Part shown: piece after piece, positions 14,991 to 44,333 of the stretch
Layout of the letters: every line of letters starts with the position of its first letter
Position numbering within the stretch: position 1 is the stretch's first letter
Assembly (NCBI GenBank): GCA_029557535.1
Contig: JAKQII010000283.1
Span: 1-47,180, forward strand
Source of the DNA: Acidobacteriota bacterium
Lineage (GTDB): Bacteria > Acidobacteriota > Blastocatellia > Pyrinomonadales > Pyrinomonadaceae
DNA: 47,180 nucleotides
Direction of reading: 5' to 3'
Notes under the pieces: generated by a model
The model's input: only the letters and a program-made list of their open reading frames with translations
Told to the model about the DNA's origin: nothing
Database searches by the model: none
Position numbers and translations under genes: made by a program

Positions 14991-14993
14991 GAC

Positions 14994-17435
14994 ATGCAAG
15001 ACAATTCTGCGTTAACAAGAAGATCCACTGATTCGGACCAGAACGTCCTCAAAGTCTCCGATCTTGATCTCGGATATCCGGATTCGGCCTATTACGGGGC
15101 AGAAACGGAGCCGTCCGATCGTCGACAGTTCTTTTCCGTGCTCGCGGTGCTGAGGAAATACTCGTTGCTGATAATAGGAGTGACCTTGTTCACGACGGCG
15201 GCAGCACTGGTTTACGAGGCGCAGCAGCCTGATTACTACGCCGCGGCGGTCCGTATTCAGGTCAACAACGAGATGAATCCGGCTGTTGGCGCCGTCTCCC
15301 AAGGATCGATGATCCTGAACCCGGGCAACGATCCCGCCTACTTTGCAACGCAATTGCAGATTCTTGAGGGTCCCGGACTTTTACGGCGCGTCGCCAGTCG
15401 GCTTGGCCTTAAGGACGATCCTGATTTTCTGCGGCCAAAGGTCTTGGCGCGGAATTCGGTCTGGCAAAACGTGCTTCGGATGTTCGGTTTGGGTACTCGG
15501 ACCGCGTCACAGCCGGAATCGAGCACCGATCCGGCGCGCAGCGACAAGGGCCTGTTGGATACGAAACGGTATGACGAGACCGACGGCAACGCGGAGGAAC
15601 TGGCGCCTTTCGTCGGTGCCATCAAGCGCGATCTCGATGTCAATCCGGTCCGGGATAACCGGACCTCGACGAAGGAAACGCGTTTGATCGAAGTTCGTTT
15701 CACACATTATGATCCGAACGTCGCGGCGCGCGTCGTCAACACGATCGCCGAAACGTACGTCATACAGAATCTCGAGCAAAAGATCCAAACCAACGCGTCG
15801 GTCGGCGACTTTCTTCAAAAACGGGTCGCTGAACTACAGTCCCAGATCCGAATCGGTGAGGAAAACCTCATCAATTACTCGAAAAACAATCAGATCCTAT
15901 CGCTCGATTCCAACCAAAACACTGTTGTGCAGCGGCTTTCCGACCTGAACGCCAAGCTCAGCCAGGCTGAAAGCGACCGGATTTCAGCGGAGGCCGCACT
16001 GATTGCAGCAAAGCAAAACCCGACGGGTGATCTCAGTGCGGGTCAAGATACCCGGACGTCCGGCCTTGAGTCTCAACTGACGACGCTTCGGCAACAGCTC
16101 GAACAGCTGAAAGTTGAATATACGGACGAATGGCCGGCGGTAAAGCAGGTAAAGCGGCAGATCGAAACGATCGAAAATGAGCTCAAGAACAGTCGTCAGC
16201 GAAGCACTTCGACCAAACTCGCTGATCTTGAGCAGAAGTTCCGCGAGGCGTCATCCCGGGAACGTGAACTGCGAACGTCGTTCGATTCCCAGCGCAAAGC
16301 CGTGCTCAACCAGAACGAGGCGGCGATCAACTATCGAATCATCCAGCAGGAGATCGACACGAACAAGTCGCTTCTCGACGGGTTGCTTCAGCGGTCGCGC
16401 GAGAACGGCGTCATTCTGAGCGGTACGCCGAACAACGTCAGCCTGGTCGACAAGGCCCTCGCGCCGTCGTCGCCAGAAGGCCCGCGCAGGTCGCGGGGAA
16501 TTCTGCTTGCGTTCCTGGCGTCTTTGTTTGGATCCGTCGTGATCGCGTTCGCCCTGAATTGGCTCGACGACACGGTCTCCGTTTACGACGATTTTGAAAT
16601 GCTCACCGGCGTTCCCGTGATCGGGCTGATTCCGGGTTCGGCCGGCGGGATCGGCGCCAAACTTCTTGGAACGCGGTACCGGAATCGTCGGCGAAACAAA
16701 CGCGGCAAATTCGATTACTCTTCTGTGAATATCGACGTCCCGGTCGTTGTCGACGCTTATCATCAGCTTCGGACTTCGGTGCTGCTCTCGACGCCGGGCG
16801 GTGCCCCGAAAACGTTGCTGGTCACCTCGGGACAGTCGTTTGAGGGCAAAACGGTCACGTCTCTTAATCTCGCACGGAGTCTTTCGGAATTGGGCGGCCG
16901 GGTATTGCTTATCGACGCCGATCTAAGATCGCCCAAACTGCATCTGATCAATGAACTCGGCAACAAGTCGGGGTTGAGCACGCTGCTGACTTCGCGCGAG
17001 ATCGATGGGTCTGTCATCGAGTCCGCGATTCACAGAAATGTGGGCGAGAATCTGGATATCCTGACGGCCGGACCCAAGGTTCCGAACCCGGCGAACTTTT
17101 TCGCGTCTCAGGAGATGCAGAAACTTCTCGTCGAGCTCGGGGCGATCTATTCGTTTATCGTGATCGACTCGCCGCCGGCACTTTACTTTGCCGACAGTGT
17201 CGTGCTGGCGACGTATGTTGACGCCGTGGTTCTTGTGGCACGGGCGAATTTCAGTTCGCGAGAGCACTTGATGGGTGCTAAGAAGCGGATACAGGAAGTG
17301 CGCGGGAACACCATCGGGATAGTCGTCAACGACGTTCCGATCGGAAATTACAAGTATTACGACGCGGGTTACTACCGCCAACTTGAAGAGGGCGAAGAGC
17401 TGAATCCGGCCGAAGGAATGCTCAAACTCGATTGA
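14994..17435 (+). CDS. Polysaccharide co-polymerase fused to tyrosine autokinase (Wzc-like)
   Basis: Inner-membrane polysaccharide co-polymerase with a cytoplasmic BY-kinase domain, controlling chain length and export together with the OPX protein. It has a Wzz domain near residues 45-130 with the first membrane helix at about 56-76. A long coiled-coil, GNVR-containing periplasmic region spans about 225-490, and the second helix is at about 505-525. The kinase domain has a Walker A motif GQSFEGKT (613-620, Lys619), Walker A' LLIDADLRSP and Walker B FIVIDSPP. The C-terminus has a tyrosine cluster (YKYYDAGYY), the normal autophosphorylation site. Length 813 is slightly longer than typical because of the periplasmic part. 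The Walker A sequence differs from the usual PGEGKS form but keeps the essential residues. Confidence 0.93.
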   Translation: MQDNSALTRRSTDSDQNVLKVSDLDLGYPDSAYYGAETEPSDRRQFFSVLAVLRKYSLLIIGVTLFTTAAALVYEAQQPDYYAAAVRIQVNNEMNPAVGAVSQGSMILNPGNDPAYFATQLQILEGPGLLRRVASRLGLKDDPDFLRPKVLARNSVWQNVLRMFGLGTRTASQPESSTDPARSDKGLLDTKRYDETDGNAEELAPFVGAIKRDLDVNPVRDNRTSTKETRLIEVRFTHYDPNVAARVVNTIAETYVIQNLEQKIQTNASVGDFLQKRVAELQSQIRIGEENLINYSKNNQILSLDSNQNTVVQRLSDLNAKLSQAESDRISAEAALIAAKQNPTGDLSAGQDTRTSGLESQLTTLRQQLEQLKVEYTDEWPAVKQVKRQIETIENELKNSRQRSTSTKLADLEQKFREASSRERELRTSFDSQRKAVLNQNEAAINYRIIQQEIDTNKSLLDGLLQRSRENGVILSGTPNNVSLVDKALAPSSPEGPRRSRGILLAFLASLFGSVVIAFALNWLDDTVSVYDDFEMLTGVPVIGLIPGSAGGIGAKLLGTRYRNRRRNKRGKFDYSSVNIDVPVVVDAYHQLRTSVLLSTPGGAPKTLLVTSGQSFEGKTVTSLNLARSLSELGGRVLLIDADLRSPKLHLINELGNKSGLSTLLTSREIDGSVIESAIHRNVGENLDILTAGPKVPNPANFFASQEMQKLLVELGAIYSFIVIDSPPALYFADSVVLATYVDAVVLVARANFSSREHLMGAKKRIQEVRGNTIGIVVNDVPIGNYKYYDAGYYRQLEEGEELNPAEGMLKLD

Positions 17436-17470
17436 CCACGGCCACATCCGTCGCTCAACTTCCAATCAAC

Positions 17471-18550
17471 ATGAAATTTCGATCCGAATGCCTGAAACGG
17501 ACGCCTGCCGGCGCGCGTGACGGTAATTGTCTGATCATCGGCGAGGTTGCTCAGTCGCACGACGGGAGCCTCGGCATGGCCCACGCATTTGTCGACGCAA
17601 TAGCCGCCGCCGGTGCCGACGCGATTAAGTTCCAAACCCATATCGCGGCCGAGGAGAGTACGCGACACGAGCCGTGGCGCGTGAAATTCAGCCGCCAGGA
17701 CGAAACCCGTTACGACTATTGGAAGCGAATGGAGTTTACGCCCGAACAGTGGGCCGGACTGAAGCGGCATGCCGACGAAGCGGGCCTTTTGTTCATGAGC
17801 AGCCCGTTTTCGGAACCGGCTGTTGATCTCTTGAGGTCGATCGGCATGCGGGTCTGGAAAGTGGCCTCCGGCGAAGTCGGCAATACGCCGATGCTCCGCC
17901 GGATAACGGAAAGGAACGATCCCGTCATTATCTCATCCGGACTGAGCGACTGGGCCGAATTGGATTCCGCCGTCGAACTGGTCAGTCGGAGAGGGAATCC
18001 GTTGGCGGTAGTCCAGTGCACGTCGGCGTATCCGTGTCCGCCGGATCGAGTCGGTTTGAATCTTCTCGGTGAGATCAACCGGCGTTACGGACTGCCCGCC
18101 GGACTTTCCGACCATTCGGGAAGGATCTTCGCGGGACTTGCGGCGGCCACGCTCGGCGCGGAAGTGATCGAAGTGCATGTCGCACTGAGCAAGGAAATGT
18201 TCGGTCCGGACGTGGCATCGTCGTTGACTTCCGAAGAACTAGGGAAATTGGTTCTCGGTGTGCGTGAAATCGAATCGATCCTCGCGTGCCCGGTCGACAA
18301 GTCGGCCCTGGCCGCTGACGCCTCCGAACTGCGAAAGCTCTTTACGAAGAGCATCGTTGCCGGAACGGACCTCGGCAAGGGCACGATCCTTGAATCGAAA
18401 CATCTGAAGCTGAAGAAACCTGGGACCGGACTGCCGCCGTCGTACTTGGCGGAACTTATCGGTCTGGAACTGGCCCGAGACCTCGTCGCGGACGAGCCGC
18501 TCTCAATGGAAGACATCGTCGACACATCCGGTTCTGCGAGGAAATGGTGA
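17471..18550 (+). CDS. neuB: NeuB-family nonulosonic acid synthase
   Basis: Condenses phosphoenolpyruvate with an N-acetylhexosamine (N-acetylmannosamine or a relative) to give a sialic-acid-type nine-carbon sugar acid. The TIM-barrel part covers about residues 18-260, with IIGEVAQSHDGSLGMA, DAIKFQTH, KVASGEV and QCTSAYPCPP. A C-terminal SAF (antifreeze-like) domain follows at about 290-355 (RKLFTKSIVAGTDLGKGT). ATG 17471 is used; TTG 17432, overlapping the previous stop, would add 13 residues, and neither has a clear ribosome site. The exact substrate (ManNAc, 2,4-diacetamido or pseudaminic precursor) cannot be read from sequence. The adjacent hydrolysing epimerase favours the neuraminate or legionaminate branch. 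Confidence 0.88.
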   Translation: MKFRSECLKRTPAGARDGNCLIIGEVAQSHDGSLGMAHAFVDAIAAAGADAIKFQTHIAAEESTRHEPWRVKFSRQDETRYDYWKRMEFTPEQWAGLKRHADEAGLLFMSSPFSEPAVDLLRSIGMRVWKVASGEVGNTPMLRRITERNDPVIISSGLSDWAELDSAVELVSRRGNPLAVVQCTSAYPCPPDRVGLNLLGEINRRYGLPAGLSDHSGRIFAGLAAATLGAEVIEVHVALSKEMFGPDVASSLTSEELGKLVLGVREIESILACPVDKSALAADASELRKLFTKSIVAGTDLGKGTILESKHLKLKKPGTGLPPSYLAELIGLELARDLVADEPLSMEDIVDTSGSARKW

Positions 18551-18599
18551 GGTGTCCCGCGTCGGGAATTGGCGCGGGATCAATCAACCAACTGTGAAT

Positions 18600-19754
18600 A
18601 TGCGGAGAAAAATCTGCGTCGTTGTGACGGCGCGGCCAAGCTACAGTCGGGTTAAGACGGCACTGAGGGCGATCATGGACAACCCGGATCTCGAACTTCA
18701 GCTAGTCGTCGCGGCCTCGGCACTTCTCGATCGTTACGGTACCGCGGTCAACTACATCGAGCGCGACGGTTTTCCGATCGCCGCCCGCGTCTACATGGTC
18801 CTTGAGGGCGAAAATCCGGCATCGATGGCGAAAACCACCGGTCTTGGGATGCTCGAACTGGCGACCGTGTTCGACAATCTCAAGCCGGATATAGTGGTCA
18901 CTGTCGCCGATCGGTTCGAGACGCTGGCGACCGCGGTCGCTGCGTCGTACATGAACATTCCGGTCGCCCACATTCAAGGTGGCGAGGTTACCGGTTCGAT
19001 CGACGAGAAGGTCCGGCATGCCGTAACGAAGCTTGCCGATATTCACCTCGTGGCCACCGAGGAGGCGGCCAGGAGGGTGACGATGATGGGAGAGGAAGCG
19101 CGAAAGGTCTACGTGACCGGCTGTCCGTCTATCGACCTCGCCGCCGACCTCGGCAACGATCCCTACCTCGACTTCAATCCGTTCGAACGATACGGCGGCG
19201 TCGGCGAACTCCACGCGCTGACGAACGGCTACGTCGTCGTGATGCAGCATCCGGTCACGACGGAACACGAAAAAGCGCGGCAGCACGTTCTTGAAACGCT
19301 GGAAGCGATTCATCGCATCGACATGCCGACGCTCTGGTTCTGGCCCAACGTCGACGCCGGCTCGGACGGCACTTCGAACGGAATTCGGTCGTACCGTGAA
19401 AAGCACAAACCGCGGAACATCCACTTCTTCAAGAATATGGAGCCTTCGGATTTTCTGCGGCTCCTGTACAGTTCCAAGTGTCTGGTCGGGAATTCAAGTG
19501 TGGGCATCCGCGAATGTTCGTTTCTCGGGGTTCCGGTCGTCAACATCGGAACGCGCCAGGCGGGACGCGAACGCGGTGAGAATGTGATCGACGTCGGCTA
19601 TTGGGCGGCGGAGATCGAGGACGCGATCAGGCAGCATCTCGGCAACGGCCGCTATCCGCGCCTTCCGCTCTACGGAAACGGCGACGCCGGCAAACGGATT
19701 TCCGAGGTTCTCGCGACGGCGCCGCTCGAGATCGAAAAACGATTGACGTACTGA
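18600..19754 (+). CDS. neuC: UDP-GlcNAc 2-epimerase (hydrolysing), NeuC/LegG type
   Basis: Converts a UDP-N-acetylhexosamine to free ManNAc (or the GDP-bacillosamine equivalent) for the NeuB reaction. The GT-B-like epimerase fold is evident from VVVTARPSYSRVKTAL, DIVVTVADRFETLATA, HIQGGEVTGSIDEKVRH, VTGCPSIDLA, MQHPVTTEHEKA and GNSSVGIRECSFLGVPVVNI. The last of these is the nucleotide-binding end of the active site. Length is about 384 residues from ATG 18600, matching NeuC. A GTG at 18552 would add 16 residues without family similarity or proper ribosome site. It overlaps the next gene by one base (TGATG). The choice between NeuC and LegG needs a phylogeny. No dehydratase/aminotransferase pair of the legionaminate route lies alongside. 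Confidence 0.85.
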   Translation: MRRKICVVVTARPSYSRVKTALRAIMDNPDLELQLVVAASALLDRYGTAVNYIERDGFPIAARVYMVLEGENPASMAKTTGLGMLELATVFDNLKPDIVVTVADRFETLATAVAASYMNIPVAHIQGGEVTGSIDEKVRHAVTKLADIHLVATEEAARRVTMMGEEARKVYVTGCPSIDLAADLGNDPYLDFNPFERYGGVGELHALTNGYVVVMQHPVTTEHEKARQHVLETLEAIHRIDMPTLWFWPNVDAGSDGTSNGIRSYREKHKPRNIHFFKNMEPSDFLRLLYSSKCLVGNSSVGIRECSFLGVPVVNIGTRQAGRERGENVIDVGYWAAEIEDAIRQHLGNGRYPRLPLYGNGDAGKRISEVLATAPLEIEKRLTY

Positions 19755-20458
19755 TGATGAACGTCCTCGGCATCATTCCCGCCCGCGGCGGATCAAAAGG
19801 CGTTCCCCGAAAGAACATCCGGCCGCTTCTTGGGAAGCCGTTGCTGGCATACACGGTGGAGTGCGCCCTCAAGTCAACGCGACTGTCGTGCGTCGTGCTC
19901 AGCACCGACGATAAAGAGATCGCCGCGATCGGACGCGGACTCGGAGCGGACGTCCCGTTTCTCAGGCCGGCGGAACTTGCCGACGACGCGGCTCCGACGT
20001 ATCCGGTCGTGATGCATGCAGTGCAGTATCTGGAGGAACACGGGCGATCATTCGACGCCGTTTGTCTGCTTCAGCCGACAAATCCTCTGCGGCAACCGGC
20101 GGACATCGATGCCTGCATCGAACTGTTGGAAAACACGGGGGCGGATTCCGTCATCAGCGTTCTCCCGGTTCCACATCAGTACAACCCGCGGTGGGTCTAT
20201 CTCAGGAACGGCGAGGGCGACCTGGTGCTGAGCACCGGGGAAAGCGCGCCGATCGCGAGACGGCAGGACCTCCCCGCAGCATTTCACCGGGACGGCTCGG
20301 TGTACGTCACGCGGACGGAAGCACTTCGACGCGACGGCAATCTCTACGGAACGCATGTCCGCGGGTATCTCATCGATCGTGAACGGTCGGTCAATATCGA
20401 TACCCCGGAAGACTGGGACATGGCGGAGCGGGCGATGAGCAGCGCAATCGGTAAATGA
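19754..20458 (+). CDS. neuA: CMP-nonulosonic acid cytidylyltransferase
   Basis: Activates the nonulosonic acid with CTP to the CMP-sugar donor used by glycosyltransferases. About 234 residues. The nucleotide-binding signature IPARGGSKGVPRKN is at residues 8-21, followed by LGKPLLAYTVECAL, STDDKEIA, LLQPTNPLR and, near the end, VNIDTPEDWDMAE. These are normal for the family. ATG 19754 overlaps the preceding stop and ATG 19757 is the next codon, so either may be used. A longer open frame reaching upstream to 19601 overlaps the epimerase and is not real. The stop overlaps the start of the FkbH-PCP-TE gene, placing sugar activation and acyl loading in one coupled transcript. Confidence 0.9.
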   Translation: MMNVLGIIPARGGSKGVPRKNIRPLLGKPLLAYTVECALKSTRLSCVVLSTDDKEIAAIGRGLGADVPFLRPAELADDAAPTYPVVMHAVQYLEEHGRSFDAVCLLQPTNPLRQPADIDACIELLENTGADSVISVLPVPHQYNPRWVYLRNGEGDLVLSTGESAPIARRQDLPAAFHRDGSVYVTRTEALRRDGNLYGTHVRGYLIDRERSVNIDTPEDWDMAERAMSSAIGK

Positions 20459-23433
20459 ACGAACTGAGGGCCAGACAAGGTCGGCGCGTGGTCGTGGCCG
20501 CCAACTTCACGGCCGAATCGATCGTGTCGGCGATGGAGGCGCTGTCTCGACGGTGGTCGTTGGGATTTGAGGTCAATTCGGCGCCGTACAATCAGCTTTT
20601 CCGGCAACTGATGGACCCGAAAAGTGCGATCGCGGTGAATGATTCGGCCGCGAACGTCTTCTTTGTGCGGATCGAGGACCTCGTCGAGTCGCGGTCGATG
20701 ATGCCGCTGGAGTTGCTGAAGCAATTAAGTAAACTGGCGCAGAACGCGGACGATCTGGTTGGTGCCTTCGGAAATGCCTCGGCGTTTCAGGTTGGGAACT
20801 TCGTGTTTGTCTGCCCGTTGTCAGCCGGGAGTGCTACGGTGCCCGAACTTCGGGTTGGGCTTACCGCCGTTCGGGATGAATTCATAGAGAGACTGACAGG
20901 CCAGCCGAATCTTTTCGTCTTCGATTGCGACGGGACCGCATCGCGCTTCGGCCTTGAAGTCGTCGACGACGACGCCCGCAATCGACTGGGGCATGTTCCG
21001 TTTAGCGAAGAGTACAACACGGCGCTGGCGGTCGATGCGCTTCGCCGCGTCGATTCGTTAGTTCGCAAGCCGTTCAAGGTTCTGGTCCTCGATTGCGACA
21101 ACACTCTCTGGGACGGGATCGTCGGCGAGCAGGGCGTCGGCGGAATTTCTTTGTCCGAAGGCCGGCGATTTCTTCAGTCGTTTGCCGTCGACCTGTCTGC
21201 ACGCGGCGTCGTTGTCTGCCTGAACAGCCGGAACAACAAAGAGGACGTTTGGGAGGTTTTCGATCAGCGGAAAGACATGATCCTGCGGCGCGAGAATATC
21301 GTTGCATCGAGGATCAACTGGCTGCCGAAGTCCGAGAATTTGCGATCGCTCGCGGCCGAACTTGAACTCGGACTCGATTCATTTGTATTCGTCGACGATG
21401 ATCCGGCCGTTTGCGCCGAGGTCCGAAGCAATTGTCCCGAGGTCCTCACAGTTCATCTGCCCGAGTCGAGCATTGATCTGCCGCGTCTGTTTGAACATCT
21501 CTGGGTTTTTGACAGGTTGAAAGTGACCGACGAAGACCGCAACCGGACGCGCTCGTATCAGGATCAGGCGAAACGGCGCGAATTGAAGCGAAGTTCGACG
21601 GGCGTGGCCGACTACCTTCGAAGTCTGGATCTCCGCTGTGAGATCGAGGAAATCCGCGTCGAGGATATTCCGCGGGTTTCGCAGTTGACGTTGAGGACGA
21701 ATCAGTTCAACGCGACAACGCGCCGGATGAGCGAAAGCGATGTCCGCGAACGGATGTCAAGCAAGATTCTCGGACTTCTGACAGTGCGCGTCAGCGATCG
21801 GTTCGGCGATTACGGTCTTGTCGGGGTCGCCGGCTACCGGACGGAAAAGCACGATTTGACGACGGACATGTTTCTCCTCAGTTGCCGGGTTCTGGGACGC
21901 GGCGTCGAACATCAGGTCGTGCGTGCGCTCGGGGCCCGGGCGATGGCCGCAGGATTGGACACGGTTTCGATCGAATTCTGCCCCACTGCGAAGAACACGC
22001 CGGTTTTGAACTTCCTTCAACAGATAGGTGAACCGTCCGATCACAGATCGGAGGGCAGTTCGGGATTTCATCTTCCGACGGAAATCGCGTGCGGGCTCCA
22101 ACCGACCGACGACGCTCCGCCGGTCGCAGGCGATTCCGCCGGCGATGCCCTCAATTCCGCGGTACGGGACGACGGATTCAGGCAACCGGAATACGTTGAA
22201 CTAGCCGGCGAATTTTCTTCGGGCCTGGATTTATCGGCGTTGTTCGTGAGCGATATTGATCCTGTCATAACGCCGGAACTCGATTCGGCGGAGGAACTTA
22301 CAAAGACCGAATCGCAACTGAAGGAGATCTTTGAGAGGGCTCTGAGGAAACGCGGGATTAGGCGATCGGACAGTTTCTTCGATATTGGCGGTACGTCGTT
22401 TCTTGCCGTAACGGTATTTGTCGAGATCGAACGGACATTTGGAGTGTCGCTGCCGCTCTCGGTTCTGATCGACTCCTCGAGCATCGAGAAACTCGCTTGC
22501 CTGATCGACGGCCCGGCCCCGAATTACGATTACAAGTACCTCGTACCGCTTCGTGCCGACGGAAGCAAGCCACCTCTGTTTTGTTTTCATGCCGCGGGCG
22601 GGAATGTGCTGAACTACATCGAGCTCGCGAACGAACTCGGCGACGACCAACCGGTTTACGGTCTCCAAATGCGGGGGGTTACCGACAAATCGGAGACCGC
22701 CCACGACGATGTCGGCGAGATGGCGAGGGAGTACCTCCGCGAGATACGTTCGCTTCAGCCTAACGGACCGTACCGGCTATGCGGGGCGTCATTTGGCGGT
22801 CTTGTCGCCTACGAAGCAGCGCGGCATCTACGAAAGGCCGGCGAGACCGTCTCGATGCTGGCGCTGATCGATACGTACGCGCCGGGATACGGCACCGAAA
22901 GATCTGACCCGGCTGTTTTTCAACGCCTGAAGCGACTGTTGGGCAAATTGAAGTTCAACATTTTCTACGTTCGCGAACTCCCGACCAACCGGAAACGGAT
23001 CGCGTATGTCGCCGGCCGGATGAAGGGCCAGGTGACGAAGGCCCGGCGGCGTCTGATCTGGCGCGCGAACAAGATCGCGATCGACTACAACAAGGCGACC
23101 GGGAAGGAGCTACCGAACGATATGCTGCGGAACGTCAAGGCGATCAAGCACGCTGAACGAAACTACCGGCCATCGCCGTTCGACGGCCGGATTATCCTTT
23201 TCCGTGCGCTTTTCCGACCCGAGAACATCGAATTTGACCATTACCTTGGGTGGCGCGAGCACACTGAATCTGAATTTGTCATCGAGGACGTCCGTGGCAA
23301 CCACAATACCGCGATCGCGTATCCTTTTGTCGCTGAATTCGCTTCGAAGTTCAAAGTTCATCTCGACGCTCCGGCGGACGGCAGCGAGGCGAATTCCGGC
23401 GCCGGTCCGGCGTCGATGGCGGCCGCGGTTTGA
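20455..23433 (+). CDS. FkbH-like glyceryl loader fused to carrier protein and thioesterase
   Basis: Three-part protein of 992 residues. Residues 1 to about 560 are FkbH-like: an N-terminal region, a HAD-IIIC phosphatase core with LDCDNTLW (Asp213, Asp215), CLNSRNNKED and FVFVDDDPAVC, then a GNAT-like segment (VRVSDRFGDYGLVGVAGY). FkbH proteins take the glyceryl group of 1,3-bisphosphoglycerate, dephosphorylate it and load it onto a carrier protein. A peptidyl/acyl carrier domain is at about 610-680 with the phosphopantetheine site GGTSF (Ser648). A type I thioesterase follows from about 695 to the end (FCFHAAGGN, nucleophile Ser779 in GASFGG, a late GNH as likely catalytic His). No ketosynthase, condensation or adenylation domain is present. 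ATG 20455 overlaps the neuA stop. Family assignments are firm; the product is inferred. Confidence 0.9.
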   Translation: MNELRARQGRRVVVAANFTAESIVSAMEALSRRWSLGFEVNSAPYNQLFRQLMDPKSAIAVNDSAANVFFVRIEDLVESRSMMPLELLKQLSKLAQNADDLVGAFGNASAFQVGNFVFVCPLSAGSATVPELRVGLTAVRDEFIERLTGQPNLFVFDCDGTASRFGLEVVDDDARNRLGHVPFSEEYNTALAVDALRRVDSLVRKPFKVLVLDCDNTLWDGIVGEQGVGGISLSEGRRFLQSFAVDLSARGVVVCLNSRNNKEDVWEVFDQRKDMILRRENIVASRINWLPKSENLRSLAAELELGLDSFVFVDDDPAVCAEVRSNCPEVLTVHLPESSIDLPRLFEHLWVFDRLKVTDEDRNRTRSYQDQAKRRELKRSSTGVADYLRSLDLRCEIEEIRVEDIPRVSQLTLRTNQFNATTRRMSESDVRERMSSKILGLLTVRVSDRFGDYGLVGVAGYRTEKHDLTTDMFLLSCRVLGRGVEHQVVRALGARAMAAGLDTVSIEFCPTAKNTPVLNFLQQIGEPSDHRSEGSSGFHLPTEIACGLQPTDDAPPVAGDSAGDALNSAVRDDGFRQPEYVELAGEFSSGLDLSALFVSDIDPVITPELDSAEELTKTESQLKEIFERALRKRGIRRSDSFFDIGGTSFLAVTVFVEIERTFGVSLPLSVLIDSSSIEKLACLIDGPAPNYDYKYLVPLRADGSKPPLFCFHAAGGNVLNYIELANELGDDQPVYGLQMRGVTDKSETAHDDVGEMAREYLREIRSLQPNGPYRLCGASFGGLVAYEAARHLRKAGETVSMLALIDTYAPGYGTERSDPAVFQRLKRLLGKLKFNIFYVRELPTNRKRIAYVAGRMKGQVTKARRRLIWRANKIAIDYNKATGKELPNDMLRNVKAIKHAERNYRPSPFDGRIILFRALFRPENIEFDHYLGWREHTESEFVIEDVRGNHNTAIAYPFVAEFASKFKVHLDAPADGSEANSGAGPASMAAAV

Positions 23434-23456
23434 GACCGTTTCGGAATAACTCAAGA

Positions 23457-26252
23457 ATGTTGCATCCGATCAACAGCAGCACGATCCAAGTGGCGTCCCA
23501 GGGTCAGAAGTCCGCGGCGGCCGAACGTCCGGTCGCGTCATTCGCCGAGATCTTTCGCGCGACCGCGCGCCGTTGTCCGGACTCGGTCGCGGTCATGGCG
23601 GGCGGAATTGCGACCACGTATGCTGAGCTGGATCGTCTGTCGGGAGCCGTCTGCAGCGGTTTGCGGCGATCAGGAGTCGGTCTGAATGACATCGTTGCGG
23701 TTTACGCGCACCGGTCATGCGAAATGTTCGCGCTGATCCTCGGAGTGCTCAAGGCCGGCGCTGCGTTTCTGCCTCTGGCCACGGATTATCCGCTCGAACG
23801 GATCGAATTCATGTTGGCGGATTCGAAGGTCAGGATAATGCTGACCCAGGACTCGCTCCTCGGCGGCTTCACGAATTTCGACGGCGCGATAGAAACTTAC
23901 GAAGATCTGACCAAGAACGCCTGTCGGGACGAGACCGACGAACCGGCATCGCCGCCGTCACCCGACGACCTGGCGTATGTCATTTACACGTCGGGATCGA
24001 CGGGAAAACCGAAGGGAGTCATGATCACGAATGGCAATCTGATCAATTACGCCGAGACCCTGCCGGTCGCGCTCGGCTTGGGGTCGTCGGACCGCTACCT
24101 CCATACGGCATCGATCTCATTCTCGTCATCGGTCCGCCAGATGATGCTGCCGTTCGCAAAGGGATCGACCGTCGTCATCGCCACAACCGAGACGATCGGG
24201 GATCCGCCCCGTCTTCTGGAGCTGATCGAGTCGGAGGGCGTCACGGTTATCGATTTCGTGCCGTCGTATTGGCGGGCCGTACTCGCGTCCGTTGACCTAA
24301 TGTCCGACACCGACCGCGCAGGCGTGCGTGACAATGCGCTCCGATTGCTGCTCTCGGCGAGTGAGCCGCTGCCGGTGTCGGTCGCCCGCGCGATCGTCCG
24401 GACATTCTCGGAAAACGCTCGGCTGATCAATATGTACGGCCAAACCGAAACGACGGGCATTGTCACGACCGGCGTGGTCAACGCAGCGGAGCTCGGCGAA
24501 ACGGGCCTGACGCCGATCGGGCGGCCGATTCCCGGCGCCGCCGCGCATGTACTTGACGGGAAAATGCAACCTGTTCCGGAGGGCGAGTTCGGCGAGCTCT
24601 GGATCGGCGGACCCGGAGTCGGACGAGGCTATCTCAATCAGGAGAAGATGTCGTCCGAACTTTTCGTCCCTGATCAGTTCGGAAAGGAAGGCGGTGGAAA
24701 GCTTTACCGCACCGGCGATCGCGCGCGGATCCGGCCCGACGGAACGATCGAATTTGCCGGCCGCTCGGACAATCAGGTCAAGATCAGGGGCTTCCGGGTC
24801 GAGCTCGGCGAGATCGAGTCAACAATCATGACTTTTCCGGGAGTCGCCGAAGCCGCGGTAGTTTCCCGCGAACAAAAGGACAGAGAATTGGGCATCATGG
24901 CCTACGTGCGGGGCGCCGATGGACGGGGCATCGACGTCGCGGCTCTCAGAAAGTTCATGCGCGATAAGCTTCCGGAGTATATGATCCCGGCGGATTTTGT
25001 CGCGCTCGAACAGTTTCCGCGGACCCCGAACGGCAAGCTCGACAGAAAGGCGTTCCCGGATCCTCCGACGATCGGTTCCGGTGACCGCTCGAAGACAACT
25101 GCCGGCACGGCGACCGAATCCGAGTTGCTTGCGATCTGGACGCGGGTCCTGGGCAAGACCAGTATCGCGATCCATGACAGCTTTTTTGACGTCGGCGGAA
25201 ACTCGCTACTCGCGATCTCGATGTGCGCCGAGGTCGAAAAGGCATTTCGAAAGAGCATCCCGATCGCGACGCTTTTCGGCGCGGCGACGATTCACGAATT
25301 GGCGAAGGTGATCGACGAACGGGATTGGTCCCCGCCCGAATCCTCGATCGTTCCGATTCGGCCTGATGGCACGCACACGCCGCTCTTTTGCGTGCATGCC
25401 GGCGGCGGAAACGTTTTGTTTTACAGCGATCTTGCGCGTCATCTCGCCGAATCGATCCCGATTTTTGGGATTCGCGTGATGCGTCTCGGCGGACGCCAGG
25501 TCGGTCACGCGACGATCGAAGAGATGGCCGAACATTATGTTTCGGAGATGCGCGGGGTACAGCCGCACGGTCCGTACCTGATATGCGGCCATTCGCTCGG
25601 CGGGACGATCGCGCTTGAAATGTCGCGACAACTCGCGGCGATTGGCGAGACGGTCAAAATTCTGGCGATGGTCGACACCTGGGGCCCGGGATACCCTCAG
25701 GCCTTGCCGAACATGACGGCGGGCCGGATGAAGTTCTACGAGATCGGCCACCGTTTCGCGAAACACTGGGACCGCTTTGCGGGGCTCGGTGCGCGCGGAA
25801 AGGCCTCGTATCTGTTCGGGATCGGCGGAAAGGTCGTCTCTCGCGCACGCCGTCGTCTGTTCTACAAACGCCAGGCGGCAGTTCGTCGGTTTTATCGGCT
25901 TTTCGAAAAGCCGATTCCCAAGGAATACATACAGATCGAGGATCAGATACACAAGGCCGCCTGCAAGTACGTTCCCGGAGAGTACGCGGGTCGGGTCGAG
26001 TTCTTCAGGGCGGAGTTTCAGCCAAAGGGCATCGTCCGCGACGATTTTCTGGGCTGGCAGGATTTGCTGACAGGCAGCATGGAGTTTCACGACGTTCCCG
26101 GAGACCACATCACGCTGATCAAGGAACCGAACGTCGAATTGATCGGGCGGGAACTCGGCAAGTTGATCCTGAATGAGGCGCAGGCGACCGGGACCGTATC
26201 GGGCCACACGGAACTTGTAGCCAAACATGGCGCCGTCGGACGAACTGAATGA
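23457..26252 (+). CDS. NRPS-like adenylation-PCP-thioesterase protein
   Basis: About 931 residues: adenylation domain (about 25-540), carrier domain (about 550-615, Ser583 in VGGNSLL) and thioesterase (about 635-915, Ser713 in GHSLGG, late GDH). Adenylation motifs present are YTSGSTGKPKGVMI, MYGQTETTG, YRTGDRARIRPDG, the hinge GRSDNQVKIRGFRVELG, and Lys527 in PNGKLDRKAFP. There is no condensation domain. By hand alignment to GrsA the specificity residues (235, 236, 239, 278, 299, 301, 322, 330, 331) are S, S, R, D, L, A, M, G, I. The Asp that normally binds the alpha-amino group is missing, so the substrate may not be an ordinary alpha-amino acid. ATG 23457 is preferred over TTG 23430, which overlaps the previous stop. 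The stop overlaps the phosphopantetheinyl transferase start. Confidence 0.9.
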   Translation: MLHPINSSTIQVASQGQKSAAAERPVASFAEIFRATARRCPDSVAVMAGGIATTYAELDRLSGAVCSGLRRSGVGLNDIVAVYAHRSCEMFALILGVLKAGAAFLPLATDYPLERIEFMLADSKVRIMLTQDSLLGGFTNFDGAIETYEDLTKNACRDETDEPASPPSPDDLAYVIYTSGSTGKPKGVMITNGNLINYAETLPVALGLGSSDRYLHTASISFSSSVRQMMLPFAKGSTVVIATTETIGDPPRLLELIESEGVTVIDFVPSYWRAVLASVDLMSDTDRAGVRDNALRLLLSASEPLPVSVARAIVRTFSENARLINMYGQTETTGIVTTGVVNAAELGETGLTPIGRPIPGAAAHVLDGKMQPVPEGEFGELWIGGPGVGRGYLNQEKMSSELFVPDQFGKEGGGKLYRTGDRARIRPDGTIEFAGRSDNQVKIRGFRVELGEIESTIMTFPGVAEAAVVSREQKDRELGIMAYVRGADGRGIDVAALRKFMRDKLPEYMIPADFVALEQFPRTPNGKLDRKAFPDPPTIGSGDRSKTTAGTATESELLAIWTRVLGKTSIAIHDSFFDVGGNSLLAISMCAEVEKAFRKSIPIATLFGAATIHELAKVIDERDWSPPESSIVPIRPDGTHTPLFCVHAGGGNVLFYSDLARHLAESIPIFGIRVMRLGGRQVGHATIEEMAEHYVSEMRGVQPHGPYLICGHSLGGTIALEMSRQLAAIGETVKILAMVDTWGPGYPQALPNMTAGRMKFYEIGHRFAKHWDRFAGLGARGKASYLFGIGGKVVSRARRRLFYKRQAAVRRFYRLFEKPIPKEYIQIEDQIHKAACKYVPGEYAGRVEFFRAEFQPKGIVRDDFLGWQDLLTGSMEFHDVPGDHITLIKEPNVELIGRELGKLILNEAQATGTVSGHTELVAKHGAVGRTE

Positions 26253-27010
26253 GCGTGCTGAACGAAATCGTAACTCGGATCTGGCCCGCCAACTTGAGTC
26301 GCGGGAAGACGGACCTGCGATCGATTGAAGAAAATTCGGAATCGGTCGATGTTTGGTCGTTTTTTGCGGAATCGAGTCCGGAACGGATCGCCGGGTTCTT
26401 GCCCGACCTTGCCGAGGACGAGAGGGAACGGTCCGCGCGCTTCGTTTTCGACGAGGACCGCAATCGATTCATCTACTGTCGCTGGGCATTGCGATCGATC
26501 CTCTCCAAGTATATGGGCGCGGTGCCGGGAAAACTCAGGTTCAGCGTCAACGAGTTCGGGAAGCCGTTCCTCAACGGGAACGCAAACGGCCTGGAGTTCA
26601 GCCTATCGCATTCGCGCGATGCCGCGCTCATCGCGGTGACTCGCGGACGGAGGGTCGGCGTCGACATTGAATACGTCGATCCGAAAACGGATGTCACGGC
26701 CCTCGCCGGCTCGGTTTTTTCAAAATCCGAGCTTGATGGAATTGGTCGACCGGCCTTGGAGTCAAATTTGGGATCTTTTTTTTCGGCTTGGACAAGGAAA
26801 GAGTCCTTGCTCAAGGCCATTGGAATGGGCTTCTCCGCGCCGGCCGGAGTGCTGCGTGAATTGAACGAACTCCCAAAAGAAGGCACCGTTTTTTTCGATA
26901 TGGCTTTAGATGGCCGGCGGTGTGAATGGGTGACGGCGTCGTTAATTGCTCCGGAAGGGTTCGTTGCGGCACTGAGCTTCGAGAACAACTTCAATGGCTT
27001 CGGTTACTAA
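26249..27010 (+). CDS. Sfp-type 4'-phosphopantetheinyl transferase
   Basis: Attaches the phosphopantetheine arm from coenzyme A to the conserved serine of carrier domains, here most likely Ser648 and Ser583 of the two preceding proteins. Both Sfp signatures are present: VGVDIE with Asp139 and WTRKESLLKAIG with Trp181, Lys184 and Glu185. SLSHSRD-type and ARFVFDEDRNRF-type motifs lie upstream. Length 253 is slightly above the 220-240 typical for the family because of a short N-terminal extension. The ATG overlaps the preceding stop (ATGA). A dedicated transferase directly in the operon shows that the carrier domains are meant to be active. An 88-base gap follows, ending this coupled block. Confidence 0.94.
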   Translation: MSVLNEIVTRIWPANLSRGKTDLRSIEENSESVDVWSFFAESSPERIAGFLPDLAEDERERSARFVFDEDRNRFIYCRWALRSILSKYMGAVPGKLRFSVNEFGKPFLNGNANGLEFSLSHSRDAALIAVTRGRRVGVDIEYVDPKTDVTALAGSVFSKSELDGIGRPALESNLGSFFSAWTRKESLLKAIGMGFSAPAGVLRELNELPKEGTVFFDMALDGRRCEWVTASLIAPEGFVAALSFENNFNGFGY

Positions 27011-27098: not shown

Positions 27099-27827
27099 AT
27101 GAAATACTACGAAATCGCCCGACGCAGTTTGGAGCCGGTACTGCCACCACTTTATGCAAGAGTACGTAGGGACGTTCTGTCAGAACTCCGCGACCTGTCC
27201 GGACCCACCTTGATCCTCGACGTTGGAGGACGTAAATCACCGTACACGATTGGCGTCCCGGCAAGGGTTCACATACTCGATCTTCCCAGGGAAAGCGAAA
27301 TTCAAAACGAACTCAACCTTGGGCTGAACGATCAGGTTGTCGGTCAAATCCAGCGTCGGCGCAGCAACATTGAAAAGGTGATACTGGGCAACATGACCCG
27401 ATCAGGATTACCGTCGAATGCATACGATATCGTTGTCTCCGTCGAGGTCCTCGAGCATGTTGAACGCGACGAGCTGTTTATTGACGAAGTCTGCCGCGTG
27501 CTGAAACCCGGCGGCGTATTCATAATGACAACGCCCAACGGCGACTTTATCGAGAACCGCAATCCTGATCACAAGCGTCACTACAAACTTCGGGAATTGG
27601 CGATCCTCTTGGACAAGTTCTTCGAACGCTCGGAACTCGAATACGCAATCGCTGGCGGCTACTTTCGGAAGGCCGGACTTCGTCCGTGGGCCGTGCGGAG
27701 GCCGATTCAAACCCTTGCCAGTATCTTTGGAAACGTCGTCAACTCGATCCAGTCGGCGAGTACTGACGTGGCGACGAAAGCCATCGGGACACACCACTTG
27801 ATAGCAAAGGCGTACAAGCGGGTTTGA
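27099..27827 (+). CDS. Class I SAM-dependent methyltransferase
   Basis: Protein of 242 residues with a Rossmann methyltransferase core. Motif I is LILDVGGRKSPY (about 41-52), then YDIVVSVEVLEHVERDEL (motif II region) and VCRVLKPGGVFIMTTPNG (motif III region). It probably methylates a sugar, a sugar carboxylate or the chain terminus during polysaccharide synthesis; the substrate cannot be told. A terminal methyl cap is a known length signal in ABC-exported O-antigens, and the exporter genes lie downstream. The 88-base gap in front is the largest in this part of the locus, so an internal promoter is possible. Confidence 0.85.
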   Translation: MKYYEIARRSLEPVLPPLYARVRRDVLSELRDLSGPTLILDVGGRKSPYTIGVPARVHILDLPRESEIQNELNLGLNDQVVGQIQRRRSNIEKVILGNMTRSGLPSNAYDIVVSVEVLEHVERDELFIDEVCRVLKPGGVFIMTTPNGDFIENRNPDHKRHYKLRELAILLDKFFERSELEYAIAGGYFRKAGLRPWAVRRPIQTLASIFGNVVNSIQSASTDVATKAIGTHHLIAKAYKRV

Positions 27828-27875: not shown

Positions 27876-29672
27876 ATGTGTGGAATTGCCGGAACAATAG
27901 GTGGCCGATCGCGGTCGGACGACGTCGGGCGGATGATCGAAATCCTCGGTCATCGCGGTCCCGACGGTGACGGGATCTACACGGATCCTGACGGCAAAGC
28001 CGTGCTCGGACACCGCCGTCTGAGCATCATCGATACCAGCGACGCGGGCCGGCAGCCAATGGCGAGCGCCGACGGTCGGTACGTGATCACGTACAACGGC
28101 GAGGTTTACAACTATCTGGAACTGCGCCGCGAACTTGAAAGCTCTTACCGCTTCACGACCCGGACCGATACCGAGGTCGTGCTGGCGGCGTATGAACGCT
28201 GGGGAGAAGACTGTCTCGACCGATTCGTCGGGATGTTCTCGTTCGTCATCTGGGACGAGATCGAGAAGGTCGCCTTCGCGGCCCGCGACCGGTTCGGAGT
28301 GAAGCCGTTTTATTATTCCGTGCGCGGTGACGGGACGTTTGTGTTCGCCAGCGAGATCAAGGCGATCCACGCCGCCGGAGTACCGAAACTCATCAATGAT
28401 GCGATTTGGGCGACGTTCTTGACTTACGGCGTTCTTGACCACAGCGATAAATGCTTTTGGCAAGATATTGCATCACTGCCCGGCGGCCATTGCTTGCTTT
28501 GGAAGAACGGCACATTGACGGTTCGGAAATGGTACGAAATTTTCGAAAAGACAGGGATCGACTTCGACACTCGCCCCGATCGTGAAGTTTCCGAAGAATA
28601 CTTGGCGTTGATGCGCAACAGCGTCGGTATTCGCTTTCGGTCCGATGTTCCGGTTGGAATCAATCTCAGCGGCGGCGTCGATTCCTCTGCCTTGCTTGCA
28701 ATCGTTGATCAGATTCATTCCAATGACCAGAATGTTAACGCCTTCACTTTTGTGACTGGGGCTAAAGACTACGACGAATTGCCGTGGGTTGAGGCAATGC
28801 TCAAGGAAACTGGACACCCCTTGATCGTGAGCACATTAAGCTCTGTTGAAGTGCCCAGTCTCGCAGAGCAAGTTCAGTTTCATCAGGATGAACCGTTCGG
28901 GGGGCTGCCGACGCTGGCATACGCAAAACTATTCTCAACCGCCCGGAACTACGGTTCGATCGTACTCTTGGATGGCAATGGAATGGATGAGCAATGGGGC
29001 GGTTACGATTATTACTTTTCGAATCCGAATTGCAACGAGCCGGGCTTGGTCCAAGGAACAACGGAATCGCCGACTCGACCGAACTGCCTCATTCCGGAAT
29101 TTCGCAAATTGGCGACGGCGGTTGAGTTTCCCAGCGTTTACCCCGAGAAATTACGAAACCTTCAGATTCGGGACGCATTCCAGACAAAGATCCCAAGGGC
29201 GCTTCGGTATAACGATCGAATCTCTATGATGTCGTCAGTCGAGTTGCGTGAGCCGTTCATTGATCACCGTCTCTTTGAGTTGGCATTGCGTCAGGCTCCC
29301 AATCGAAAAACAAACGGAAAGCAGGGAAAGGTGATGTTACGCAAGCTAGTGCAAGAACTTGTACCACGAACGATATCGACCGCTCCAAAACGTGCGCTTC
29401 AAACTCCGCAGCGCGAATGGCTGCGCGGCGAGCTCAGGGATTGGGCCCATTCGATGGTGTTGGGCGCGATCGCATCGTTTGGCGGCTCATGGCTTTCAGT
29501 TCCGATGGTGAAATCTGCGTGGGAAGATTTCGTCATGGGCCGAGGCGACAACAGTTTCTTTGTCTGGCAGTGGATCAGTTTGGGCCTGTTGACGACGTCG
29601 GTCTCGAACCTCGGTCACAGAAACGAAACTCATCAGAACGCCACGCAACGCGAATCGTCGGCGATTCAATGA
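27876..29672 (+). CDS. Asparagine-synthase-like glutamine amidotransferase
   Basis: Two-domain enzyme of 598 residues. The class II glutaminase domain begins with the catalytic Cys2 (MCGIAG) and includes HRGPDGDG and TYNGEVYNY. The synthetase domain has the pyrophosphate loop NLSGGVDSSALLA. It should use glutamine, ATP and a carboxylate to make an amide. Within polysaccharide loci such proteins often amidate uronic or nonulosonic acids rather than aspartate; that is the likely role here but is inferred. Base composition changes inside the gene: about 28380-29400 is visibly AT-richer than both ends, suggesting recombination. The gene is 48 bases after the methyltransferase and 7 bases before the ABC permease. 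A second family member lies at 42454-44331. Confidence 0.9.
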   Translation: MCGIAGTIGGRSRSDDVGRMIEILGHRGPDGDGIYTDPDGKAVLGHRRLSIIDTSDAGRQPMASADGRYVITYNGEVYNYLELRRELESSYRFTTRTDTEVVLAAYERWGEDCLDRFVGMFSFVIWDEIEKVAFAARDRFGVKPFYYSVRGDGTFVFASEIKAIHAAGVPKLINDAIWATFLTYGVLDHSDKCFWQDIASLPGGHCLLWKNGTLTVRKWYEIFEKTGIDFDTRPDREVSEEYLALMRNSVGIRFRSDVPVGINLSGGVDSSALLAIVDQIHSNDQNVNAFTFVTGAKDYDELPWVEAMLKETGHPLIVSTLSSVEVPSLAEQVQFHQDEPFGGLPTLAYAKLFSTARNYGSIVLLDGNGMDEQWGGYDYYFSNPNCNEPGLVQGTTESPTRPNCLIPEFRKLATAVEFPSVYPEKLRNLQIRDAFQTKIPRALRYNDRISMMSSVELREPFIDHRLFELALRQAPNRKTNGKQGKVMLRKLVQELVPRTISTAPKRALQTPQREWLRGELRDWAHSMVLGAIASFGGSWLSVPMVKSAWEDFVMGRGDNSFFVWQWISLGLLTTSVSNLGHRNETHQNATQRESSAIQ

Positions 29673-38631: not shown

Positions 38632-38641
38632 GGCGTTAACC

Positions 38642-44331: not shown

Positions 44332-44333
44332 TT

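Follow-up and report, generated by a model that had tools for sequence, protein, structure and literature searches.

A candidate acyl-loading cartridge and its exchangeable loaders in a nonulosonic-acid polysaccharide locus of an Acidobacteriota bacterium

Proteins related to nonribosomal peptide synthetases (NRPSs) and FkbH are nearly always read as natural-product genes. What, then, are they doing among genes for a surface polysaccharide? The question is raised by the window, by which we mean the whole stretch of DNA analysed here (47,180 nucleotides of contig JAKQII010000283.1, assembly GCA_029557535.1, from an Acidobacteriota bacterium of the family Pyrinomonadaceae). Three successive genes in it encode an FkbH-type protein with a peptidyl carrier protein (PCP) and a thioesterase (TE) domain, an adenylation (A) protein with the same two domains, and a phosphopantetheinyl transferase (PPTase). 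We consider it probable that this trio is an acyl-loading cartridge of a capsule-type nonulosonic-acid polysaccharide locus, adding a glyceryl group and a second, probably non-amino acid. The observed parts are its architecture, its locus context, a genome without chain extension, a variable place in relatives and the exchange of loaders. Here a carrier-protein assembly line belongs to a surface-polysaccharide locus as an exchangeable part, its products being single units and its terminal PCP-TE conserved, and genome miners may be counting such loci as metabolite clusters.

Architecture of the trio and chain-building capacity of the genome

The trio and its domains are as follows.
20455..23433, forward strand: FkbH-PCP-TE protein of 992 amino acids (aa), from the open frame and domain models
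21076..22032, forward strand: FkbH domain, residues 208-526, with the LDCDNTLW motif (TIGR01686)
22315..22497, forward strand: carrier protein domain 1, residues 621-681, with Ser648 (PF00550, 42.4 bits)
22570..23319, forward strand: thioesterase domain 1, residues 706-955, with Ser779, Asp806 and His950 (PF00975, 98.3 bits)
23430..26252, forward strand: A-PCP-TE protein of 940 aa with a TTG start, or an ATG at 23457, from the open frame and domain models
23553..25037, forward strand: adenylation domain, residues 42-536, with Ser for Asp235 (PF00501, PF13193, TIGR01733)
25122..25310, forward strand: carrier protein domain 2, residues 565-627 (PF00550, 48.4 bits)
25380..26135, forward strand: thioesterase domain 2, residues 651-902 (PF00975, 100.6 bits)
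26249..27010, forward strand: Sfp-type 4'-phosphopantetheinyl transferase of 253 aa (PF01648 and PF22624, both over cut-off)

The identities that an initial annotation had given to the trio stood up, with three in-line open frames on the forward strand matched by domain models. The FkbH domain scored 310.5 bits (TIGR01686 cut-off, 146.65), and its HAD motif (DxDxT) is intact, D213, C214, D215, T217 and W219 being invariant in four family sequences. In the second protein, with its AMP-binding part at residues 42-402 and a C-terminal part at 461-536, the A domain reached 397.8 bits (TIGR01733 cut-off, 317.4). Both proteins have the carrier serine and the Ser/Asp/His triad of the TE. By Pfam, the third is an AASDHPPT_N plus ACPS protein (PF22624, 35.5 bits against 27; PF01648, 47.7 against 25); it attained no named equivalog in the NCBIfam search. 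The overlaps described earlier are present as four bases (ATGA) between neuA and the first gene and likewise between the second and third, and that between the first and second hinges on the TTG start at 23430, the ATG at 23457 leaving a short gap.

No condensation (C) or ketosynthase (KS) domain lies within the trio, and the earlier statement that it makes no peptide or polyketide by itself was borne out genome-wide. We searched the window's assembly (98.11% complete, 404 contigs) for domain families alongside 14 control genomes and found no match in the window's genome to the condensation domain PF00668 or to PF16197, a marker of type-I polyketide synthases (PKSs); each was detected in 4 of the 14 controls. 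Within this genome, then, the PCPs lack any elongating partner, and the module is incapable of chain elongation. Two genes of the PPTase superfamily are present in this genome, that of the trio and a 158-aa frame that is AcpS-like by length. The trio's enzyme would be the natural one to arm the trio's PCPs.

For the second acid, the A domain offers a clue. Its code reads SSRSLSMGIK (mapped by hand on the PheA positions), with Ser in place of Asp235. Because Asp235 holds the substrate amino group, the second acid is probably no alpha-amino acid; a hydroxy or other non-amino acid is the probable substrate as judged from these residues. Asp stands at position 235 in 9 of 10 A domains of related cartridges, and Ser in the first A domain of G062. 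The SSRS-SMGI code also appears in two starter modules elsewhere in the family, one of them with an FkbM-type methyltransferase insert; at L208:1873-4644 a starter A domain with this code has such an insert between the A core and the PCP.

For the first acid, passages of PMC7489565 and PMC13122637 describe a proposed route in which FkbH and 1,3-bisphosphoglycerate give glyceryl-acyl carrier protein (ACP), the unit sometimes being O-methylated, and a passage of PMC13122637 has FkbH loading glycerate on an NRPS PCP in suomilide. By analogy, we infer that 1,3-bisphosphoglycerate would be the FkbH substrate here.

A variable place and the exchange of loaders

The trio lies between neuA and AsnB1, an asparagine-synthase-like gene. 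We traced AsnB1 through the family, finding it in 18 of 119 genomes at 19 places; with G001, where a contig end cuts the locus, this gives 20 places in 19 genomes. A place is the stretch from neuA to AsnB1, or from AsnB1 to the contig end. PCP-TE genes fill 10 of the 20 (G000, G001, G003, G011, G019, G062, G085, G452, G483 and G506), and seven have no cartridge (two G081 loci, G488, G016, G017, G509 and G030). G024 has two other genes, a methyltransferase and a polysaccharide-deacetylase-type gene, and two places, those of G489 (with a visible PPTase) and G507, were left unassigned.

The contents of the place vary widely. G085 and G001 share the order NeuB-NeuC-NeuA-MT1-FkbH-PCP-TE-AsnB1 (MT1 is a methyltransferase), with no A-PCP-TE and no PPTase between. 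G003 has proteins of 1474 and 1885 aa, and G452, G483 and G506 have proteins of 1462, 1526 and 1463 aa, respectively. By Pfam, the G452 protein and both G003 proteins consist of Formyl_trans_N/C, a degenerate condensation domain (C*), A, PCP and TE; we call them formyl-NRPSs. Their C* is below the Pfam cut-off in G452 and partial in G003, and the 1885-aa protein has a methyltransferase-like insert. The architecture of G483 and G506 was assigned from colinear BLAST matches to the window and from gene order and length equal to those of G452, not from Pfam. The 1969-aa protein of G062 is A-PCP-C-A-PCP-TE by Pfam. Contig ends hide one side of the places in G011 (3114, 855 and 382 aa, a PPTase and 1870 aa) and G019 (3094, 850 and 389 aa and a PPTase), both with a C-PCP-TE protein adjoining a protein of the Acyl_transf_3 family, which includes sugar O-acyltransferases. 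Several cartridges are thus one- or two-residue machines ending in a TE, those of G011 and G019 being larger.

This variety is found within single genera. In genus g9, G085 carries FkbH-PCP-TE, G452, G483 and G506 carry formyl-NRPSs, G011 carries a large NRPS set, and the place in G488 is empty. In genus g1, the window carries the trio, G001 a lone FkbH-PCP-TE and G003 two formyl-NRPSs. Full-length FkbH-PCP-TE genes occur in 4 of 145 relatives, the window's genome counted. A PPTase is near them in neither G085 nor G001 and is on the same contig in G081. A second, diverged NeuB-like/NeuA-like pair lies in the polysaccharide region of G081 (L110:15021-17765), which suggests two nonulosonic acids.

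The trio as a conserved unit was considered and rejected: the other three full-length FkbH-PCP-TE relatives are without an adjoining A-PCP-TE, and among the loci examined only the window pairs A-PCP-TE with a PPTase. The self-contained conserved module of the initial annotation thus gave way to a variable one, the exact trio being unique among those loci and other NRPS types, some with condensation domains, occupying the place in relatives. The annotation had proposed to look in genomes for the adjacent trio and its neighbours; the loci examined show the trio once, and its FkbH-PCP-TE part recurs in the polysaccharide locus of G085 and G001. That recurrence bears out the earlier placement of the module in a polysaccharide locus rather than a secondary-metabolite pathway, as do the genome without chain-extending domains and the G081 copy, about 46 kb off on the same contig. 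The opposite pattern, a trio outside the polysaccharide loci of all relatives and accompanied by a complete metabolite pathway, is not the one that FkbH-PCP-TE displays.

Phylogeny points to one retained PCP-TE behind these different loaders. In a tree of 86 PCP-TE sequences (with the G304 TE left out), all 14 PCP-TEs of related loci formed one clade whatever domain precedes them (99/99; 100% of 200 bootstraps), with one change against 13.3 in shuffles, separate from 18 TE rows of the relatives' other NRPSs. Within the clade, FkbH-loaded TEs did not stand together, as three formyl-NRPS TEs of genus g9 fell among them; forcing the FkbH-loaded TEs into one clade was rejected (66 log units worse; approximately unbiased test, P = 3.4e-15) for a group picked after the tree had been seen. 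Because the FkbH-loaded PCP-TEs are no clade of their own, loaders have been exchanged while the PCP-TE was retained. In pairwise comparison, the G085 PCP-TE is 61-63% identical to those of the congeneric formyl-NRPSs of G452, G483 and G506 and 52% identical to the window's, and G085 aligns with G452 only from G085 residue 582 onward, with no local alignment upstream.

The TE of the window's A-PCP-TE groups with those of G003, G011 and G062 (98/95), and the protein itself shares 44% identity with a formyl-NRPS of G003. Its simplest history would be one in which the formyl and C* parts were lost. The FkbH domains of the family form one clade of four (96/88) in a careful 27-row tree. Two separate recruitments of FkbH, hinted at by a quick 94-row tree and not by the careful one, were set aside and one recruitment kept. 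Group labels in the FkbH tree were assigned by length only, and L117, L118 and L119, which are contigs of G085, G001 and G081, were left out of the trees.

Proposed mechanism, surrounding locus and competing explanations

In the mechanism that we propose, the PPTase would arm both carrier domains. FkbH would take glyceryl from 1,3-bisphosphoglycerate and remove the phosphate to give glyceryl-S-PCP, and the A domain would adenylate another small acid, one that is unlikely to be an alpha-amino acid, and load it onto PCP 2. Each TE would accept the acyl group onto its serine and then, in the cytoplasm, acylate a sugar of the locus glycan at a hydroxyl or amino group, and acylation would precede ABC (ATP-binding cassette)-dependent export through Wza. 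The PCP-TE would be a constant dock fitting the locus's own acceptor, and the loader (FkbH, A, formyl-C*-A, A-PCP-C-A or C) would be exchangeable and determine the group added. Here we infer the substrates, transfer instead of hydrolysis, and the sugar acceptor.

For TE 1, an AlphaFold model (predicted local distance difference test score, 84.8) had as its nearest chains AB3403, an epimerising/cyclising NRPS TE, NocB, EntF, and the fatty acid synthase and Pks13 TEs; the match to Pks13 had Z 24.1 and a root-mean-square deviation of 2.2 over 192 residues. The fold does not separate transfer from release, because transferring, cyclising and hydrolytic TEs match about equally.

The genes around the trio are those of a nonulosonic-acid polysaccharide locus.
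14028-14990, forward strand: Wza-like outer-membrane exporter (among the PF02563, PF02706 and PF13614 matches of 14028..17435)
14994-17435, forward strand: Wzc-like chain-length/kinase protein (among the same matches)
17432..18550, forward strand: NeuB-type nonulosonate synthase (PF03102; TIGR03569, 291.9 bits, below the cut-off of 399.65)
18552..19754, forward strand: NeuC-type hydrolysing UDP-GlcNAc 2-epimerase (TIGR03568, 385.7 bits, over the cut-off of 235.9)
19757..20458, forward strand: NeuA/PseF-type cytidylyltransferase (PF02348; TIGR03584 (PseF), 189.7 bits, just below 205.7)
27099..27827, forward strand: S-adenosylmethionine-dependent methyltransferase MT1, kept in many related loci (PF08241)
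27876..29672, forward strand: asparagine-synthase-like amidotransferase AsnB1, the downstream edge of the variable place (PF00733, PF13537)
29680..30612, forward strand: ABC-2 type exporter permease (PF01061)
30634..31941, forward strand: ABC exporter ATPase of 435 aa with a C-terminal extension (PF00005)
40068..40922, forward strand: PhyH-like Fe(II)/2-oxoglutarate dioxygenase, part of the shared core (PF05721, invariant residues)
38534..46798, forward strand: glycosyltransferase-like genes at 38534, 40909, 44328 and 45839

NeuC over its cut-off, together with NeuB and NeuA by Pfam, gives the nonulosonic-acid signature. At the equivalog level that would point to N-acetylneuraminate in particular, TIGR03569 for NeuB scores 291.9 against 399.65 bits and TIGR03584 (PseF) for NeuA 189.7 against 205.7, and the sugar may or may not be that one. 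The mechanical open reading frame (ORF) of neuA begins at 19601, and homologues align from the Met at 19757. LuxR-type regulators are among the genes upstream of the trio and sugar enzymes among those downstream. The glycosyltransferase-like gene at 38534 exceeds the NF046086 cut-off with 255.3 bits, those at 40909 and 44328 match NF046086 weakly, and that at 45839 matches PF00535. As the initial annotation had it, an exporter follows the trio, with two genes (the methyltransferase and the asparagine-synthase-like gene) intervening. Promoter and terminator scans gave no excess over shuffles (5 against 6.5 and 25 against 21.8).

Some of these neighbours were candidates for a part in the cartridge. 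MT1 as methylase of the glyceryl group was rejected, since MT1 is also in four cartridge-less loci (both G081 loci, G488 and G016), and the PhyH-like dioxygenase as a cartridge member because it is also in G488 and G016, where the place is empty. MT1, AsnB1 and the PhyH-like enzyme thus belong to the core, and MT1 may act on it. The dioxygenase has HxD, H and R invariant in nine sequences and its profile matches phytanoyl-CoA dioxygenases (PF05721 cut-off, 22 bits; 27.6 in the G003 homologue and 16.7, below it, in the window's); it falls in no NCBIfam family, and homologues stand immediately before FkbH-PCP-TE in L140 and L144. The C-terminal part of the ATPase also varies, G085 aligning with the window over residues 3-271 only and G062 over 4-426. 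That this part tracks cartridge type was ruled out twice over, as the window and G085 share FkbH-PCP-TE with different extensions and G062 shares the window's extension but not its cartridge. Elsewhere in the locus, a second asparagine-synthase-like amidotransferase lies at 42454-44331, its closest match seen being in G011 (64%), and 31938-33853 holds two tandem proteins with weak GH130/GH43/GH32-like matches under Pfam cut-offs, followed by a WbqC-family gene; the tandem and WbqC stretch is missing from the syntenic stretch of G085.

Several points weigh against an acyl-loading cartridge. The exact trio was encountered once, in the window alone among the loci examined, and the cartridge is dispensable, because 7 of 20 loci have none in the place. 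The G081 FkbH-PCP-TE is outside the place, 46 kb from neuA on the same contig, and its FkbH stands apart from the other three in the quick 94-row tree. NeuC occurs in 15 genomes outside the family, 13 of which were inspected (12 plus G304, some on short contigs): no FkbH, A or PCP-TE homologue was beside neuC in the 12 loci, and only G304 has one. Among these 12, G393 encodes a protein of 975 aa that carries a C-type motif but does not match A, FkbH or PCP-TE. The TEs here could hydrolyse; the Pks13 fold match is level with or below those of cyclising and hydrolytic TEs. For the glycans of these bacteria, no acyl substituent is known to us.

Could the trio instead make a small soluble or secreted compound, its TEs freeing an acid or joining glyceryl to the second acid, with the polysaccharide genes as mere neighbours? 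A-T-TE enzymes making furanones and quinones, with an A domain for aryl pyruvates and a TE that condenses two of these, provide a model. A-PCP-TE without C is an architecture associated with small aryl metabolites, most TEs of NRPSs serve for release, and the close TE folds include cyclising ones. We nevertheless think this unlikely: in 10 of 20 loci the PCP-TE genes occupy the neuA-AsnB1 interval of an export locus that is conserved, their TEs are a locus-specific clade, and no separate transporter, regulator or tailoring set accompanies the cartridge in G085 or G001. FkbH-PCP-TE moreover occurs without A-PCP-TE, so a joint product of glyceryl and the second acid cannot be general. Quite unlikely, in our judgement, is an acylated residue that serves as a cap or anchor ending the polymer, recognised through the ABC ATPase's C-terminal part, and not as a repeated decoration. 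The extension does vary between loci (G085 against G062), and capping is a known feature of ABC-exported chains; yet the extension is independent of cartridge type in both comparisons made above (window with G085, window with G062), and the exporter is retained in cartridge-less loci.

Hydrolytic TEs might also supply free hydroxy acids, which another enzyme, for example AsnB1 (27876), would join to an amine after ATP-dependent activation. AsnB1 adjoins the place in the loci resolved and keeps its glutaminase start, MCG, and its SGGVDSS motif. It is, however, also present at the seven cartridge-less places of the 20, so the shared core is likely to include its substrate, and loading an acid on a carrier merely to hydrolyse it wastes the thioester; we regard this explanation as improbable. 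An assembly artefact or decaying remnant is scarcely credible: the assembly is in 404 contigs, of which the window is one, and the window's FkbH and TE branches are long, but the trio comprises three long open frames with intact catalytic motifs, and two independent relatives have FkbH-PCP-TE within the same order of genes. Acyl loading for the locus glycan remains the reading that we favour.

FkbH-PCP-TE in wider genomes and comparison with known systems

A scan of named genomes yielded 588 stretches and 471 relatives, and the counts that follow come from the best 80 of the 471. In these loci, short motifs served to identify C, KS and A domains, and neighbours were recognised by BLAST against the window's proteins. 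Distant genes thus go unseen, and some of the ATPase matches (for example, in L122 and L131) could come from unrelated ABC proteins. There were 37 lone FkbH-PCP-TE genes, 880-1110 aa long, three of them the G085, G001 and G081 contigs. An exporter homologue was near 16 of the 37 and an exporter or glycosyltransferase homologue near 25; C motifs were near two (L142 and L151) and KS motifs near none, the corresponding counts among the other 43 FkbH loci being 25 and 4. Both the 25 loci and the two C motifs add to the case for a polysaccharide setting, and this context argues that FkbH products often end on glycans. A PPTase was within three ORFs of 6 of the 37. Within the same distance of 20 stood a protein family of about 340 aa, directly downstream in 17; three members tested are GT2-type glycosyltransferases.

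Outside the window's family, the TE nucleophile is Cys (GGMCAGG type) in 33 of 34 lone FkbH-PCP-TEs, and it is Ser in the 14 TEs of the family's loci. The 33 of 34 excludes L178_998, an A-PCP-TE protein labelled as lone FkbH by length in the TE tree and residue count. The lone genes of L121-L174 belong to Cyanobacteria, Planctomycetes, Proteobacteria and Myxococcota and mostly have the cysteine TE (for example, L142:9905-12883 and L122:9953-13009). With the GT2-type gene downstream, the cysteine-TE FkbH-PCP-TE looks like a distinct acyl-transfer pair, seemingly unstudied.

Free-standing FkbH of the window's bacterial family adjoins a gene for a DltB-like membrane-bound O-acyltransferase (MBOAT) in the two loci scanned, where TIGR04091 reaches 184 and 191 bits and so stays under its cut-off of 375. 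At L045:8763-14537 and L042:9218-13934, FkbH of about 645 aa stands by a familyless protein of about 370 aa and the MBOAT; L045 also has a 143-aa MaoC-like gene and a short-chain dehydrogenase/reductase gene, and G019 and G061 have genes of like length. This set is a probable further cassette for glycerate-derived surface acylation.

A broader idea, which we hold only tentatively, is that capsules vary by assembly-line shuffling. Whole one- or two-unit loaders (FkbH, A, formyl-A or C) would be exchanged before a retained, acceptor-fitted PCP-TE whose TE is a glycan acyltransferase, and the same principle would have arisen separately in other phyla as cysteine-TE FkbH-PCP-TE paired with a glycosyltransferase. 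The attachment enzymes of nonulosonic-acid acyl groups are mostly unknown, and glycan acylation by the cartridge, if true, would provide a genetic route to the N-/O-acyl, aminoacyl and glyceryl groups of bacterial nonulosonic acids. It would also suggest how coats become diverse, phages being one example of what they might counter, and offer nature's own series of loader swaps on a single dock, which NRPS engineers try to copy.

How does such a cartridge compare with known systems? In Campylobacter jejuni, we take Cj1299-Cj1304 to include ACP, methyltransferase and FkbH-like phosphatase genes, although we found no confirming paper. Flagellin pseudaminic acid of this species carries 2,3-di-O-methylglyceroyl, tied to Cj1295 in passages of PMC3068675. 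The likeness is a glyceryl-type acyl group on a nonulosonic acid, encoded in a nonulosonic-acid locus; the difference is a protein glycan instead of a capsule, and those passages are silent on FkbH, PCP and TE. The FkbH-ACP glycerate units of FK520, tetronates and suomilide share FkbH with a carrier and glycerate from 1,3-bisphosphoglycerate, but their unit enters a chain built by KS or C domains, whereas this genome has no such domains and the TE directly follows the carrier.

Pks13 likewise has a type-I TE fused to a carrier and, in a passage of PMC7503588, transfers its acyl chain to the sugar trehalose. The NCBIfam model that scores best over the TE is NF040607, at 86.2 bits far short of its cut-off; Pks13 differs in its mycolic acid, PKS and trehalose, and other TEs match equally or better. 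Formylating NRPSs of the linear gramicidin type (F-A-PCP) resemble the G003 and G452 cartridges, which start with Formyl_trans_N/C before A-PCP, and the window's A protein finds its best PDB match in LgrA. Unlike that system, the cartridges handle one residue, with the TE directly after it, in a polysaccharide locus, and the window's A-PCP-TE is without a formyl domain.

In Vibrio cholerae O1 tetronate transfer and Dlt D-alanylation, an adenylating enzyme and a carrier supply acyl or aminoacyl groups to a surface glycan. Those systems use separate small proteins and separate acyltransferases, and the window scores 256.5 bits against the DltA equivalog TIGR01734 (cut-off, 559.85), so it falls outside Dlt. 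The XrtA/PEP-CTERM exopolysaccharide system similarly has an acyl-AMP ligase and an asparagine-synthase-like gene in a polysaccharide locus; the window's scores lie far below the cut-offs of the XrtA-associated ligase and amidotransferase equivalogs (TIGR03098, 230.3 against 592.35; TIGR03108, 340.1 against 816.9). We found no report in the open-access literature of an exchangeable FkbH/NRPS cartridge with a locus-bound PCP-TE in a glycan locus; one open-access paper on NRPS together with nonulosonic-acid (sialic acid) capsular polysaccharide has them as separate clusters. As far as that literature shows, what is new here is the exchangeable cartridge with its locus-bound PCP-TE.

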